Source: a virus. Taken from it: a DNA stretch of 32,485 nt. Within the stretch, counting starts at the first letter, position 1, and each line of letters begins with the position of its first letter. The notes under the pieces were generated by a model, which saw only the letters and a program-made list of their open reading frames with translations, did not search any database and had not been told where the DNA came from. The stretch spans positions 1-32,485 of IMG/VR virus record IMGVR_UViG_3300012964_000036; one strand, given 5' to 3'. The position numbers and the translations under genes were made by a program. This document shows positions 2,871-20,937 of the stretch, piece after piece.

Positions 2871-4613
2871 ATGAAGACCGCTACCGCGTCCCCGACCTCG
2901 AGCGAGGTCGTCAAGCTCTCGCAACTCACCATCGACCCGGTCAACGTCCGGAAGACCAATCGAGGCGCCGAACCGAAGTTCGCCTCGAGCATCGCGAAGC
3001 GCGGCGTCCTCGCCCCGTTTACCGTTCGCCGCGACGTCAAGTCCGGATTCTTCCTCGTCACCGACGGCGGCGAGCGGCTCCAGGCGCTCCAATACCTGCG
3101 CAAGAACAAGAAGACCGCGAAGGGCGTCCTCGTGACCGACGACTTCAAGGTCAAGGTCGAGGTTACCGACCGCTCCGACGCCGACGCCCGGTCGACGAGC
3201 CTCGCGCTTAACCTAATCCGCCACGACATGCATCCGGTCGACGAGTTCGAGGCGTTCGCCGCGATGGTCAAGGACGGCGCGACCCTCGAGGACATCGGCG
3301 ATGAATATAACCGGAAGCCGGCCGAGGTTCGACAGGCGCTCTCGCTCGCGTCGATCGCACCCGAGATTCGCGCGGCGTGGCGCGAGGGCAAGCTGAACGG
3401 CGCGGCGGCCGAGGCCTACGCGCAGACCCAGGACCTCGAGCATCAGGTCCGTATATTCAAAAAGCTCAAGGGTCGCGCCGGCGAAGCGTGGTCGGTCAAC
3501 CAGGAGGTTCGCGGCGCGAACGAGCATCGAATTGGCGTCCTGCTCAAGCTCGTCGGCCAGAAGGAATACGAGGCGGCCGGCCATCAGGTGAACACGTCTC
3601 TCTTCGTCGACGACGACCGCCAGCCGGTAACCGTCAACAACGTCCCGGCGCTCAAGGCGATGGCCGCGAAGAAAGTCGAGGCCGAGTGCGAGCGGCTCAA
3701 GGCCGACGGTTGGGGGTGGGCTATCCCGAAGGACGAAGCCCCGCGCGACATCTACGCGTGGCGCCGCCTTCCCGACGGCAAACCGACCGCCGACATGAAG
3801 AAGCTCGCCGGCTGCACGGTGAACGTCTCCTTCAACGGAACGCTCGAGGTCGAGCGCGGCTACCTCAAGCCGGGCGTTAGCGTCAAAATCGAGAAGACGG
3901 CCGCGCAGAAGGCCGCCGCCCGCAAGGCCGGCCCGACGAACCCGGGCATCATCTCGGCCGCGCTGACCTCTCGCATGTCCGAGGCGCTTACATCGGCGAC
4001 GGCGACCGTCGTCTCGGCGGCCGACCCCGACATGGTCTTGCGCCTCGCCATCGCCGGGCTCCTCTGCTCGACTGGCTTCGGCTCGAGTTCGCCGATTTGC
4101 CTCAAGCACTCGGGGATGCTCAGCCGCAAGGACGAGGACGCCGACGACGACCGCGACTTCGCGAAGGAGCTCGCCAAGCTCGCGAAGGTCGGCCGACCGG
4201 CCCTGCTCAAGCAGTTCGCCGCGCTCGTCGGAATGTCGGTCGACCTCACGAGCCACCACTCGGACCGCCGGCTCGACGTCGCCGGTGACGGGGAAGACGA
4301 CGACGGGACGGCCGCCACGCTGGTCAACTTCGTCCCGCAGAAGGACCTCCAGAAGGCGCTCCTCGCGACATTCAACGTCGACGACTACTTCGAGAATGCC
4401 CCGGGAGCTCTCGCGCTCGCGGCCATCGCCGACATGGGCTTGACCCCGCTTAAGAACGTCAAGAAGGCGGCCCAAGCCAAGATGGCGGCCGACCACGCGA
4501 AGAAGCTCGGGTGGCTCCCGCCGCAACTCCGGACGAAGGGCTATACCGGACCGAAGTCGAAGCCTGCGGCGAAGAAGAAGGCGAAGGCCTCAAGCCGGAA
4601 GAAGCGCGCGTGA
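2871..4613 (+). CDS. ParB-like DNA-binding protein (ParB/Srx domain)
   Basis: The 580-residue protein starts at ATG 2871 with GGAG just upstream (2850-2870). Residues 14-120 form a ParB/sulfiredoxin-type domain: DPVNVR at 22-27, GGERLQAL at 66-73 in the position of the nucleotide-binding GERR box, and NLIRHDMHPVDEF at about 114-126, corresponding to the ENLxRxxLxPxEEA box. A helix-turn-helix region follows at about 138-165 (GATLEDIGDEYNRKPAEVRQ). The remaining 400 residues are unfamiliar and end in a Lys/Ala-rich tail (545-580). ParB proteins are CTP-dependent DNA clamps that load at parS; this one resembles the large plasmid and phage versions. No ParA is visible. A parS-like site occurs at 10993-11008. 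The last codon overlaps the GTG of the methylase-like gene. Confidence 0.85.
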   Translation: MKTATASPTSSEVVKLSQLTIDPVNVRKTNRGAEPKFASSIAKRGVLAPFTVRRDVKSGFFLVTDGGERLQALQYLRKNKKTAKGVLVTDDFKVKVEVTDRSDADARSTSLALNLIRHDMHPVDEFEAFAAMVKDGATLEDIGDEYNRKPAEVRQALSLASIAPEIRAAWREGKLNGAAAEAYAQTQDLEHQVRIFKKLKGRAGEAWSVNQEVRGANEHRIGVLLKLVGQKEYEAAGHQVNTSLFVDDDRQPVTVNNVPALKAMAAKKVEAECERLKADGWGWAIPKDEAPRDIYAWRRLPDGKPTADMKKLAGCTVNVSFNGTLEVERGYLKPGVSVKIEKTAAQKAAARKAGPTNPGIISAALTSRMSEALTSATATVVSAADPDMVLRLAIAGLLCSTGFGSSSPICLKHSGMLSRKDEDADDDRDFAKELAKLAKVGRPALLKQFAALVGMSVDLTSHHSDRRLDVAGDGEDDDGTAATLVNFVPQKDLQKALLATFNVDDYFENAPGALALAAIADMGLTPLKNVKKAAQAKMAADHAKKLGWLPPQLRTKGYTGPKSKPAAKKKAKASSRKKRA

Positions 4614-6505: not shown

Positions 6506-6717
6506 TGATCGAGCACCCCGACGACTTTATGGAGCAGGCTCGCCTCACGCTCGTAACTGGCCTGAAGTTTAAGCAACGTATGAAGGATCGCGGTTTAACC
6601 GTTGCTCAGTCTATATGCCCGAAGTGCGGGAACCGGCTCGACGCCGCGCTCGTCGGCAGGAAGGGCCATTTTCATATGCTCTGCCGGACGCTCAACTGCC
6701 TCGCGATGATGGAGTAG
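6505..6717 (+). CDS. Small zinc-finger-like protein
   Basis: The protein has 70 residues and starts at ATG 6505, sharing one base with the upstream TGA (TGATG). The N-terminal 35 residues are helical; the C-terminal half has a cysteine cluster, CPKCGN, followed about 25 residues later by LCRTLNC. This can form a four-cysteine zinc ribbon or knuckle. Such small phage zinc proteins often bind nucleic acid or host polymerase, but nothing here shows which. The radical SAM gene starts six bases downstream. Confidence 0.6.
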   Translation: MIEHPDDFMEQARLTLVTGLKFKQRMKDRGLTVAQSICPKCGNRLDAALVGRKGHFHMLCRTLNCLAMME

Positions 6718-6722
6718 CTTTT

Positions 6723-7532
6723 ATGTCGAACTATTCCCCCGACCAGCCAATCGTCAAAGGCGCCGACGTGATTTACCCCCCGACCGGGCTCGCCGGCGAG
6801 TACGCTCCGCTCGCGACGAACCCCTACGTCGGCTGCGGGCACGGCTGCAAATATTGCTACGTCCCGCTCGTCTCGAAGCAGCCGCGCGCCGAGTTCAACG
6901 CGGGCGCGGTCGAGCGGAAGGGCTACCGCGAGCGGTTGCTGAACGACCTCAATCGCTACGAGCGCGCCGGCGAGCTCAATCATCAGGTCATGCTCTCGTT
7001 CATGACCGACCCCTATCACCCGGGCGACTCGAGCCTGACGACCTGGACCCTGCGCGCGCTCGCCGGCCGAGGCCTCGGGTTCTGCACGCTCACGAAGGGC
7101 GGCGCGCGGGCGCTCCGCGACCTGCCGCTCTTCCGGCCGGATCGCGACGCGTTCGCCTCGACGCTGACGTCGCTCGACGACGCGTTCTCGCTCAAGTGGG
7201 AACCGGACGCCGCACTCCCCGGCGACCGAATCGCGACGCTCCGGCGGTTTCACGAGGCGGGCATCTTCACCTGGGTCTCGCTCGAGCCGACGCTTGACGC
7301 GGCCGCGAGCCTCGCCATCGTCGAGGCGACCTGCGGCTTCGTCGACCTCTTCAAAATCGGGAAGGCAAACTACCTCAAGGGCTACGGCGCCGACACAGAC
7401 TGGCGAGACTATACCCTCCGGATGGTCGATGCCTGCCAGACGTTCGGCGTCCTCCACTATATCAAGAAGGACCTCCAGGAGTTCTTGCCGGCCGGCTACC
7501 CGAACCCGCTCCGCGTCGAGCAACACCGATAA
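6723..7532 (+). CDS. Radical SAM enzyme, spore-photoproduct-lyase-like
   Basis: The 269-residue protein starts at ATG 6723. The segment NPYVGCGHGCKYCYVP gives the radical SAM [4Fe-4S] motif CxxxCxxC with cysteines 38, 42 and 45. The following FMTDPYHPGD is typical of the SplB-like/Rv2578c-like radical SAM group, which includes spore photoproduct lyase and several uncharacterised proteins. A TIM-barrel core follows (FCTLTKGGARALRDL, WVSLEPTLD, FKIGKANY). Length fits a compact single-domain member. Substrate is unknown: family relationship permits DNA lesion repair or modification of a nucleotide or amino acid. It follows a methylase-like gene and a zinc-finger gene, so a DNA-modifying role is plausible but inferred. 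Confidence 0.8.
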   Translation: MSNYSPDQPIVKGADVIYPPTGLAGEYAPLATNPYVGCGHGCKYCYVPLVSKQPRAEFNAGAVERKGYRERLLNDLNRYERAGELNHQVMLSFMTDPYHPGDSSLTTWTLRALAGRGLGFCTLTKGGARALRDLPLFRPDRDAFASTLTSLDDAFSLKWEPDAALPGDRIATLRRFHEAGIFTWVSLEPTLDAAASLAIVEATCGFVDLFKIGKANYLKGYGADTDWRDYTLRMVDACQTFGVLHYIKKDLQEFLPAGYPNPLRVEQHR

Positions 7533-8284: not shown

Positions 8285-8394
8285 AGGTCGGGGCGCGCCG
8301 CCGGCGGCGGGTCGTCCGGAAGCTGCGGCGCCATCAGGAGCGCCAGGACGAAGACCACCGCGCCAATCAAAAGAAGCCAGCCCTTCGGGGTCAT
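8281..8394 (-). CDS. 37-residue single-span membrane peptide
   Basis: The ATG at 8394-8392 overlaps the TGA of the upstream peptidase gene (ATGA), and the reading frame closes with TAG at 8281. The peptide has a hydrophobic span (WLLLIGAVVFVLALLMAP) after four N-terminal residues, then a proline-rich acidic tail (QLPDDPPPAARPDL). It is the last gene of the late leftward transcript and is followed at once by the terminator hairpin. Its place in the lysis region suggests a lysis accessory (for example a small holin-like or spanin-like peptide), but no family is recognised. Confidence 0.5.
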   Translation of the reverse strand: MTPKGWLLLIGAVVFVLALLMAPQLPDDPPPAARPDL

Positions 8395-9170
8395 CGTCGA
8401 CTCGCCGCGACGCGCGCTCGGACCTCGCGGTGGGCGACGCGGCCGCGGGCGTGGTGGCTGGCGACCTTCCTACCGTGCCGACGCGCGGCGAGCAGGCCGG
8501 AGCTCCCGCGAGCCTCGCAGACCGACCCCGAGGCGATGGCCTGGACGTGGCCGTAGTCCGGCCGCCGACACCAGACGCCGCCCTCGAACAGGCCGTGCCT
8601 CGAGGCGATGGCCGCCATCTCGACCGGGCCCGGAAGGTTGCAGTTCCTCGCCCCGCTGACGTGACCCCGATGATCCTGGCAAACGTCGAGCGCCGAGCCG
8701 CAGGGGTGCTGGCTCCCGACCGAGCACCGGCCCCGGCGGTAGCCGCCCATATAGTAGACCGCCGCGCCCCGCGCCTCGAGGTCGTCGACGTAGGCCTGGA
8801 ACACGCCCGACCACCGGGGGGAGACGCGGGCGGTCGCGCCGGTCTTCCCCGAGCGGACGACGCCGGAACCGGCCTCGACCGCCGGAGCCGCGACGGCGGC
8901 CGTCGACTTCGTTTCGGGGGCGGCGCGGCCGGGCGGGGGCGGGCGGACGCTGCGGCGTTCGACTTGACGGGCCTTCCGGAGCGCCGGCGGCGGGGAGGCC
9001 TCTCTACGGGCTCGGGAGACGGTTTGGACGGGGCAGACCCGGTCGCCGCAAAAGGCGGTCACCGTGGAACCGGGCGGGCCTCTGTCGAGGGTCTTCGCCT
9101 CCGAAGGGGCGGCAAGCGCCGATAGGGTGAACAGGGCCAGCGCGAGGCCGGCGGTGCGCGTCATTTTCAT
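8391..9170 (-). CDS. Secreted M15-type (VanY-like) peptidase
   Basis: The 259-residue protein starts at ATG 9170 with AAGGAGG on the minus strand about 10 bases upstream (9187-9181). Residues 1-25 are a Sec signal peptide (MKMTRTAGLALALF then LSALAAPSEA). A low-complexity Pro/Arg linker follows to about 115. The catalytic part (115-215) contains SQHPCGSALD at 153-162, an exact match to the zinc-ligand motif SxHxxGxAxD of M15 peptidases (ligands His155 and Asp162), and a third ligand candidate His208 in DYGHV. Several cysteines suggest disulfides, fitting periplasmic location. The C-terminal 40 residues are basic. The family cleaves peptidoglycan peptides, so it probably helps lysis alongside the cytoplasmic endolysin. 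Confidence 0.7.
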   Translation of the reverse strand: MKMTRTAGLALALFTLSALAAPSEAKTLDRGPPGSTVTAFCGDRVCPVQTVSRARREASPPPALRKARQVERRSVRPPPPGRAAPETKSTAAVAAPAVEAGSGVVRSGKTGATARVSPRWSGVFQAYVDDLEARGAAVYYMGGYRRGRCSVGSQHPCGSALDVCQDHRGHVSGARNCNLPGPVEMAAIASRHGLFEGGVWCRRPDYGHVQAIASGSVCEARGSSGLLAARRHGRKVASHHARGRVAHREVRARVAASRR

Positions 9171-9240
9171 GGCGTGAGCCCCTCCTTACAGGGCGAGTTC
9201 TCGGTGGGTCGCTTGCCCCGCCCCTCCTCCGGCGGAATGA

Positions 9241-9257
9241 GCCCGGACCGTCCGGGC
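9241..9257. promoter_or_regulatory. Perfect short inverted repeat between divergent genes
   Basis: GCCCGGA-CCG-TCCGGGC is a seven-base perfect inverted repeat around three bases, lying in the leader of the leftward peptidase gene and upstream of the rightward DUF3309 promoter. It has no U-run on either side, so it is more like an operator or an mRNA hairpin than a terminator. The rest of the gene-free stretch 9171-9379 holds the peptidase ribosome-binding site and the EcfG-like promoter. Confidence 0.3.
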
Positions 9258-9311
9258 GAGGCGCGACCATAGCTGACTCGGCTCGAGCTCGCCATCTGGC
9301 GGCGCACCATC

Positions 9312-9337
9312 GGAACTTCGCCCGGCACGCGTGCGTT
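9312..9337 (+). promoter_or_regulatory. EcfG-type general-stress promoter of the DUF3309 gene
   Basis: GGAAC at 9312-9316 is followed by 17 bases and CGTT at 9334-9337. This matches the promoter consensus of EcfG, the alphaproteobacterial general-stress sigma factor (GGAAC, 16-17 bases, CGTT). It faces the DUF3309 gene and would give a leader of roughly 35 bases before ATG 9380. Recognition by a host EcfG is inferred from the consensus only. Confidence 0.6.
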
Positions 9338-9379
9338 GCCAGCACGGCGACGCGCTCGTCGCCTCGGGGAGAGACGTCG

Positions 9380-9562
9380 ATGTCACTTTCAATGATCGTT
9401 CTAATTGTTCTGCTGGTCGTCTTGCTCGGCGCCGTCGGCCCGGCCGTCGCCCCGCACCGAACTCCGTGGACCTACGGTTATGGCTTCGGCCACGGCGGTA
9501 TCAGCGCGGTCGGCGTCGTAATCGTAGTCGTCGTCGCGATGCTTCTTCTAGGCCGGCTTTAG
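9380..9562 (+). CDS. DUF3309-family small membrane protein (moron candidate)
   Basis: The 60-residue protein starts at ATG 9380, preceded by GGGGAGAG (9366-9373). It has two hydrophobic segments (MIVLIVLLVVLLGAVG and VGVVIVVVVAMLLL) joined by a Tyr/Gly-rich turn (WTYGYGFGHGG), and it ends in LLLGRL. This is the layout of DUF3309 proteins, which are found in alphaproteobacteria and some of their phages and whose function is unknown. It is the only rightward gene inside the leftward late region and has its own promoter, so it behaves like a moron, perhaps expressed from a prophage or during host stress. Its stop overlaps the stop of the facing gene by four bases. Confidence 0.8.
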   Translation: MSLSMIVLIVLLVVLLGAVGPAVAPHRTPWTYGYGFGHGGISAVGVVIVVVVAMLLLGRL

Positions 9563-9924
9563 TCGCCGGTTACGCCGCCGTCATAGCCGAGCGGGCGAAC
9601 CCATCCTCGAGCTTCGACTTCCTTCTTCCGCTGGCGCAGCGCGACGATTCTCATCGTGATGATGAGGTCAATCGCGATGTTGATCGCGACGTTCGGCGAC
9701 CATGGTGCCCATCCCTTGACGTGCGCGAAGTCGAGCGACCAGAGGAAGGCGAGGGCGAGCGCCGGGTACATGACCTTGCGGCCGTACCGGACGATTATGC
9801 AGTCGCGGTTTGAGTCGTGGTCGAGCCACGTCGCCTGCGACGCGTAAATCGAGACGACCATTCCGTAGAGCGCGGCGAGAACGTGCACCGCCGTCAGGTC
9901 AAATTTGTCGACGTACTCAAGCAT
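9559..9924 (-). CDS. Membrane protein with two to three spans, lysis-region
   Basis: The 121-residue protein starts at ATG 9924, overlapping the upstream gene by eight bases. Hydrophobic segments occur at about residues 11-29 (AVHVLAALYGMVVSIYAS), 51-66 (VMYPALALAFLWSL) and 77-92 (NVAINIAIDLIITMRI), followed by a basic tail. It sits among holin-like and membrane genes. No family is recognised; a holin or antiholin role is possible from position and topology only. Confidence 0.6.
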   Translation of the reverse strand: MLEYVDKFDLTAVHVLAALYGMVVSIYASQATWLDHDSNRDCIIVRYGRKVMYPALALAFLWSLDFAHVKGWAPWSPNVAINIAIDLIITMRIVALRQRKKEVEARGWVRPLGYDGGVTGD

Positions 9925-10216
9925 CGGGCTTTCCTCCGGTGGCGGCCGTCGGGCTGTAGCGTTTGATCGCGTCCATGATCTTCTGGCAGATGACCATCGC
10001 GCCGAGGCCTAGGATGAACGTCGTCGCCCCCTGTCCCGTTCCGATGAGTTTCCCGGCGGGTTCCCCGAGATAGTTCGCGGTGAGCGCACCGGCGACGACC
10101 GAGCTCACCAAGGCGAGCGGGCCGACCTTCTGCATGACGATGGAACTCACGATGCCGCCCGAGGCACCGCCGACCAAATCCGAGACGCGAAGGCCGAAGT
10201 CAGAAAGAGCGCCCAT
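9917..10216 (-). CDS. Small hydrophobic protein, holin-like candidate
   Basis: The 99-residue protein is read from ATG 10216, preceded by a G-rich ribosome-binding site; a TTG further upstream (10234) would place that site inside the gene. Hydrophobic, glycine/alanine-rich segments (GGASGGIVSSIVMQKVG, LALVSSVVAGALTANYLG, TTFILGLGAMVICQKIM) give two or three spans with a short charged C-terminus. Size and topology fit a phage holin. The neighbouring 190-residue LLH-like protein is a competing holin candidate, so the two may form a holin/antiholin pair. Confidence 0.55.
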   Translation of the reverse strand: MGALSDFGLRVSDLVGGASGGIVSSIVMQKVGPLALVSSVVAGALTANYLGEPAGKLIGTGQGATTFILGLGAMVICQKIMDAIKRYSPTAATGGKPDA

Positions 10217-10257
10217 CTTTAACTTACCCCCCAAAGGTTAACCGACCCCGAAGACGG

Positions 10258-10626
10258 TCAGCCCAGGTTCTCGCTGGCGCGCGCCCACCACCGTTCGGTC
10301 TCGTCGTGAGTCCATCCCGGAGGATCTACTCCGGCGATGTGCGCCGAGGCGGCCGCGAGCTCGCGGTCGGTGACCGGCGACGCGTCGCCGCGAACCTTCT
10401 TGAGTTGGCCGATGAAGTCCGAGAGCGTCTTGAAAAGCTCTGGCGCGGCGGCCTTCGCCGCGGCGAACGCCGCCGGCCCCTCGACGACCGCCTGTCGAAG
10501 AATCGGGATGGCGGCCTCGCCGTAGGGCTCGAGCTTCTGGATGATGGCGAGGACCGGAGCCGCGCCCGGGAAGGCGATGGACGCCGCCCCGAGCGCGAAG
10601 TTGATCAGCGTGCCGGCGGCGCTCAC
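10258..10626 (-). CDS. Lysis-region protein of unknown function
   Basis: The 122-residue protein is read from GTG 10626, two bases after the stop of the lipoprotein gene. The first 30 residues are hydrophobic (TLINFALGAASIAFPGAAPVL) and could be a membrane segment or signal anchor. The middle is alanine-rich and helical; the C-terminus contains DREL.AASAHIAGVDPPGW and ends in a Trp-rich segment (DETERWWARA). No family is recognised. It lies between a lipoprotein and holin-like genes, which suggests an envelope role. Confidence 0.6.
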   Translation of the reverse strand: MSAAGTLINFALGAASIAFPGAAPVLAIIQKLEPYGEAAIPILRQAVVEGPAAFAAAKAAAPELFKTLSDFIGQLKKVRGDASPVTDRELAAASAHIAGVDPPGWTHDETERWWARASENLG

Positions 10627-20583: not shown

Positions 20584-20937
20584 TTAGAATGCCGCCGCTG
20601 CCGTTTGCCCGGTAGAATCCGTGACCTGTACTTGACCGCCGACCGTTCTCCCGACCTTGTCGAAGGTCAGGAAGCATTTCGCCGAGACGACGCCCGGGAC
20701 CGTCAACGCCGCCTCGATGAACCGCTGCTTGAGCAGCGCGAGCGGCGGCGTGTGGCCGAGGATTTGCTCCCAATAAGGGACGCCCATCGCCGTGTCGTAC
20801 CAAACCTCGCCCTTGAACGTCCGGATGGCCGACGCGGCATCTTGCGCGAGCGCGTAGGCCCCGTCGACCGTCGCGATGTTGCCCGCGCCGTCGATCGTTA
20901 GGTCCCAGGTCTCCGGGTTTAGCAAAAGGGTCTTCAC
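20584..20937 (-). CDS. gp25/GPW-like baseplate wedge protein
   Basis: The 117-residue protein starts at GTG 20937, overlapping the stop of the spike gene (GTGA). Features of the gp25-like family include the N-terminal [16 protein letters not shown], the central [20 protein letters not shown] and the following helix plus beta C-terminus ([10 protein letters not shown]). T4 gp25 is the wedge part that starts sheath assembly. Its place between baseplate J and the spike is normal. Confidence 0.85.

Follow-up and report, generated by a model that had tools for sequence, protein, structure and literature searches.

In Alphaproteobacteria, the general stress regulon is controlled by the EcfG (ECF15)-NepR-PhyR system (PMC7083833, PMC4814048), and the EcfG promoter consensus has been described as GGAAC-N16-CGTT in Sphingopyxis granuli (PMC7083833) and as GAAC-N16,17-C/GGTT in Methylobacterium extorquens (PMC4814048). 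Phage genes that answer to a host regulator are known from cyanophages, in which they are controlled by host PhoBR via pho boxes (PMC10976474). In the papers searched, most subscription papers being outside the search, no report was found of a phage gene driven by the general stress sigma factor of Alphaproteobacteria. Only one paper was found that names DUF3309, as a protein released by Asaia, and none of the papers searched connected the family with the EcfG general stress regulon.

The window analysed here is the whole virus record IMGVR_UViG_3300012964_000036 (32,485 nucleotides), which is probably a fragment of a myovirus. Its rightward arm, up to about 8 kb, contains a terminase-like gene and others, and its leftward arm, after about 8 kb, contains lysis, tail, sheath, and capsid genes. 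A ParB-like gene (2871-4613, plus strand) and a radical-SAM-like gene (6615-7532, plus strand; below the Pfam cut-off) adjoin the terminase-like gene in the rightward arm, and a search for tRNA in the window found none. From 8391 to the window end, all plausible genes are leftward except the DUF3309 gene, which agrees with the lone rightward gene in a leftward region claimed by the initial annotation. The GGAAC, 17-base spacer, and CGTT that it had noted ahead of this gene were confirmed by direct reading of 9312-9337. The features are given below, with reference to the nearest phage found (L004, IMGVR_UViG_3300001605_000002, 72.6 kb, terminase 74% identical).

8391-9170, minus strand: M15-like peptidase gene, divergent, on the far side of the intergenic region, below the Pfam cut-off
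9312-9316, plus strand: -35 box GGAAC of the EcfG-type promoter, read in the sequence, identical in L004 (20585-20589)
9317-9333, plus strand: 17-nt spacer, length as in L004, sequence not conserved
9334-9337, plus strand: -10 box CGTT, read in the sequence
9366-9373, plus strand: Shine-Dalgarno-like GGGGAGAG, 6 nt before the ATG at 9380, read in the sequence
9380-9562, plus strand: DUF3309 gene, 60 aa, ATG at 9380, TAG at 9560-9562, PF11752 match
9559-9924, minus strand: h1, small convergent gene, its stop overlapping the DUF3309 stop by 4 nt
9917-10234, minus strand: h2, holin-like gene (PHROG holin family 2359, E 1e-7)

We consider it probable that 9312-9562 is a host stress-regulon-type unit carried by the phage and transcribed by host EcfG. 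In this one-gene unit, the EcfG-type (ECF15) promoter GGAAC-N17-CGTT would drive a 60-aa DUF3309 double-helix membrane protein, with transcription predicted to start a few bases past CGTT, at about 9342-9346. Under general stress in an infected or lysogenised alphaproteobacterium, PhyR would sequester NepR and EcfG would be freed; host EcfG-RNA polymerase would then transcribe the unit outside the phage late programme, and the DUF3309 protein would reinforce or imitate the DUF3309 complement that the host itself places in the membrane under stress. Comparative evidence argues strongly for the EcfG transcription step, and EcfG binding and stress induction are predicted from it. What is known of the DUF3309 family suggests that the protein may supplement or imitate host DUF3309 and have an envelope-protective role.

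The motif agrees with EcfG (ECF15) promoters in its -35 box GGAAC, its -10 box CGTT (GGTT being the permitted variant), and a spacer within 16-17 nt; it also lies at a suitable distance from the start codon, with 42 nt between CGTT and the ATG, and is conserved in the relative L004. The unit resembles the known regulon in its exact consensus boxes, in its allowed spacing, and in that DUF3309 genes with the promoter occur in alphaproteobacterial genomes, and differs from it in that the target is a phage gene whose EcfG dependence is predicted from sequence. Across the window, GGAAC-N16/18-CGTT gave 3 matches against 1.5 expected from shuffles, and 17 of 100 shuffles reached 3; the bare motif in the window is not significant and is weak evidence alone. 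Both of the other matches lay within coding genes. The motif's lack of enrichment in the window, and its absence before most phage DUF3309 genes, would be expected if it were a chance match before an ordinary phage DUF3309 gene whose actual promoter, of phage or sigma-70 type, escaped detection. In dinucleotide shuffles, the chance that a strict site would fall 10-70 nt ahead of the DUF3309 start in the window was about 0.0005, a figure for a site that the initial annotation had picked. The ortholog in L004 provides the independent test.

The L004 ortholog (20646-20813, rightward, about 44% identical) has like kinds of leftward neighbours on either side, and scored 19.6 bits against PF11752, under the gathering score. 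GGAAC-N17-CGTT was found at 20585-20610, 35 nt before its ATG, and the shuffle rate for a site 10-70 nt before the start was 0.0016 (dinucleotide shuffles), or 0.0008 for the N17 spacing. Between the window and L004, the boxes were identical at 9 of 9 positions and the spacer at 4 of 17, while the upstream 60 bases shared 19, the surroundings being at background identity. The whole L004 record contains two strict sites, the DUF3309 promoter site and one within the holin-like gene, so that the former is the sole strict site outside a coding gene in 72.6 kb. With the boxes conserved, the spacer diverged, and the one other strict site of L004 explained by conserved codons, the boxes look selected. 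Conservation of the promoter in related phages had been proposed as a check by the initial annotation, and both boxes and the N17 spacing were indeed kept in L004, the spacer sequence not being conserved. Against a chance match stand the site's independent reappearance in L004 with this pattern of conservation (shuffle rate about 0.001), the same gene-promoter pairing in host genomes, and a search for a sigma-70-like site across 8300-10400, which found none; we regard a chance match as quite unlikely. A second, different DUF3309 gene of L004 (19289-19453, minus strand) lies about 1.2 kb away from the first one and lacks the promoter. From the peptidase gene to h1, the distance is about 2 kb in L004 versus 0.4 kb in the window, and this stretch is therefore a variable region.

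A further GGAAC-N17-CGTT lies at 10017-10042 on the minus strand within h2, about 93 nt before the h1 start, and is conserved in L004. It was rejected as promoter evidence, since it encodes the conserved holin-like residues GT..GATTF on the same strand and in the same frame, and its conservation is explained by coding constraint; a promoter role for h1 could in principle still be served by this site.

On the lysis side, the 4-nt stop-to-stop overlap of DUF3309 and h1 was common to the window (9559/9562) and L004 (20810/20813), h2 matched a holin family, and an endolysin-like gene follows it. Before the DUF3309 stop, one terminator-like match was found, no better than chance, and DUF3309 and h1 leave no room for a terminator between them. 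Since no convincing terminator precedes h1 and the holin-like genes, an antisense effect on lysis would be a serious alternative or additional role: stress-induced RNA would run past the DUF3309 stop into h1, h2, and the endolysin gene, and antisense pairing or polymerase collision would delay lysis in stressed cells. However, 4-nt overlaps are frequent among compact phage genes, the protein is conserved (about 44%) and hence under selection, and the DUF3309 genes of other phages show no association with lysis genes, so that we judge this explanation unlikely in place of the EcfG-transcribed stress unit.

Like phage morons, the stress-regulon-type unit is a single gene with its own promoter, here predicted from a sequence match; it points the opposite way to the genes around it, and the content of the region is not the same in the window and in L004. 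Phage morons are prophage-expressed and dispensable for lytic growth, whereas the window unit is moron-like as judged from orientation and motif.

The window protein scored 28 bits against PF11752 (gathering cut-off 22.3; positions 1-50 of 50). Two membrane helices were predicted, at residues 3-22 and 37-56, with a flexible loop of Gly and aromatic residues between them (hydropathy; AlphaFold pLDDT 69, moderate confidence). DUF3309 proteins are small membrane proteins of about 50 aa with two membrane helices, and the window protein resembles them in length, its two hydrophobic helices, its Gly-rich middle, and a Pfam score above the cut-off, and differs as a divergent subtype with a longer loop (APHRTPWTYGYGFGHGG). 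Its nearest relatives, at about 43-52% identity, were a viral protein (L381, the nearest found, about 50%) and the alphaproteobacterial L195-L198. The host subfamily closest to it (L195-L198, L204) was without the motif, and for this reason a joint descent of gene and promoter from a known host gene would be conjecture. Joint arrival is not required either, because DUF3309 is common in phages and most copies are without the promoter.

Protein searches with phage DUF3309 in plasmids, phages, IMG/VR, and genome collections were fruitless, and the classic L004 copy missed even itself, probably because low-complexity masking hides DUF3309 from such searches. DUF3309 genes were collected instead by degenerate DNA patterns and the Pfam model. 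A promoter-free DNA pattern recovered 88 stretches from IMG/VR, about 83 of which were real short DUF3309 genes; with the family this frequent in phages, the mere presence of such a gene in the window is nothing unusual. Of the roughly 83 unselected genes, a single one (L297) had a strict intergenic site, and the promoter is therefore a trait of some phage lineages, presumably ones infecting Alphaproteobacteria, and not of phage DUF3309 generally. Intergenic strict sites were found before DUF3309 in two unrelated viral contigs, L297 (35 nt) and L299 (22 nt; second subtype); both were first found with a motif-containing pattern, and L299 by that pattern only, so the pair shows recurrence and not frequency. 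All but one of the other strict matches in these two records fell within ORFs; the exception, in the L297 phage (94 kb), is a second intergenic GGAAC-N17-CGTT (L439, 90382-90407) located 34 nt before a 193-aa ORF with no assigned function. The first IMG/VR pattern scan gave chance matches for the most part, and the L385 match was rejected as a promoter, as it has an 18-nt spacer and falls within the preceding coding gene or at its end. Phage DUF3309 as a member of a lysis cassette was also rejected, as the neighbours of 85 viral copies varied and no lysis family was among the 25 most frequent or best-scoring. DUF3309 is widespread in IMG/VR contigs (L331-L417), and a subfamily with FSG.GGGPFYGTGYYGGGGLGL had no PHROG match among the copies tested.

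The same promoter before host DUF3309 genes was another check proposed by the initial annotation, and it was run on 81 DUF3309 genes found with the Pfam model in 54 alphaproteobacterial genomes. Strict GGAAC-N16/17-CGTT was present 10-70 nt before the start in 15 of the 81 genes, and in 20 of 81 when GGTT was allowed; the next three 61-nt upstream bins of the same genes gave 0. When spacers of 12 to 23 were scanned, CGTT matches occurred at 16 and 17 only, with the exception of a single match at 21. Over 360 permutations of the motif, among them the true one, the mean was 0.09 matches, and the best of the others reached 4. A pattern-based set covered 116 DUF3309 genes across all bacteria. The motif preceded none of its 106 genes without an alphaproteobacterial label (Fisher 1.6e-6 versus the alphaproteobacterial set), and none of the ten with that label.

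A search at E 0.01 for nepR, the gene for the general-stress anti-sigma factor, gave matches in 36 of the 54 genomes. Where a DUF3309 gene bore the promoter, 16 of 18 genomes had such a match, versus 20 of 36 where none did (Fisher p 0.016). In 11 of the 54 genomes, a DUF3309 gene and a nepR match lay 1.3-9.2 kb apart, 9 of these nepR matches being above the family cut-off; this linkage was noticed in the coordinates after the search, and its computed probability is only a rough guide. The linked genomes were G003, G009, G035, G084, G126, G155, G158, G208, G226, G280, and G294. These coordinates suggest that DUF3309 may be a frequent accessory gene of the nepR locus in Alphaproteobacteria, and from the promoter pairing together with the nepR neighbourhood it seems to belong recurrently to the EcfG regulon there.

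The host of the phage was searched by capsid, sheath, holin, and endolysin proteins, and the result was mixed, with gamma- and betaproteobacterial phages and some alphaproteobacterial genome matches. The relatives of the major capsid and sheath (40-50%) were mostly phages of gamma- and betaproteobacteria, and capsid matches were found in 4 of 385 alphaproteobacterial genomes. We infer an alphaproteobacterial host, in which EcfG, NepR, and PhyR would be present. The promoter might instead serve another ECF sigma factor with a GGAAC/CGTT-like consensus, either a non-EcfG proteobacterial ECF or one of the actinobacterial SigR/SigH type. The actinobacterial SigR/SigH consensus GGAAY-N18/19-GTT overlaps the GGAAC/CGTT motif. 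The mixed picture from the host searches fits such a factor, as does the AAC core common to ECF -35 boxes (PMC7083833). That possibility appears distinctly improbable to us, as the capsid and sheath relatives infect Proteobacteria, and DUF3309, which can adjoin nepR, carries the motif in Alphaproteobacteria only (0 of 106 elsewhere).

The initial annotation had read the locus as an EcfG-driven moron. This interpretation is partly supported, and better than the bare motif would justify: the motif, the lone gene, its conservation in L004, and the gene-promoter pairing in hosts favour it, and it is weakened by the findings that DUF3309 is common in phages, nearly always without the promoter, and that the closest host genes have no motif. 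As with the cyanophage pho boxes (PMC10976474), phage genes would be placed under a host stress or nutrient regulator and their expression would follow the state of the host. The cyanophage case concerns a two-component activator and was examined with transcriptomics and DNA-binding assays, whereas the present one concerns the promoter of an alternative sigma factor, known from sequence only. More broadly, we lean slightly towards the view that some phages of Alphaproteobacteria carry host general stress regulon members behind authentic EcfG promoters, so that the PhyR-NepR-EcfG switch would govern expression of an accessory gene and, through an antisense effect, perhaps the timing of lysis. 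If phages do use the sigma factor in this way, a simple promoter could make the outcome of infection in Alphaproteobacteria of soil, plant-associated, and aquatic habitats dependent on the stress state of the host. By its promoter and gene neighbourhood, the unstudied DUF3309 family would be placed in the alphaproteobacterial general stress response, a first functional lead for it.
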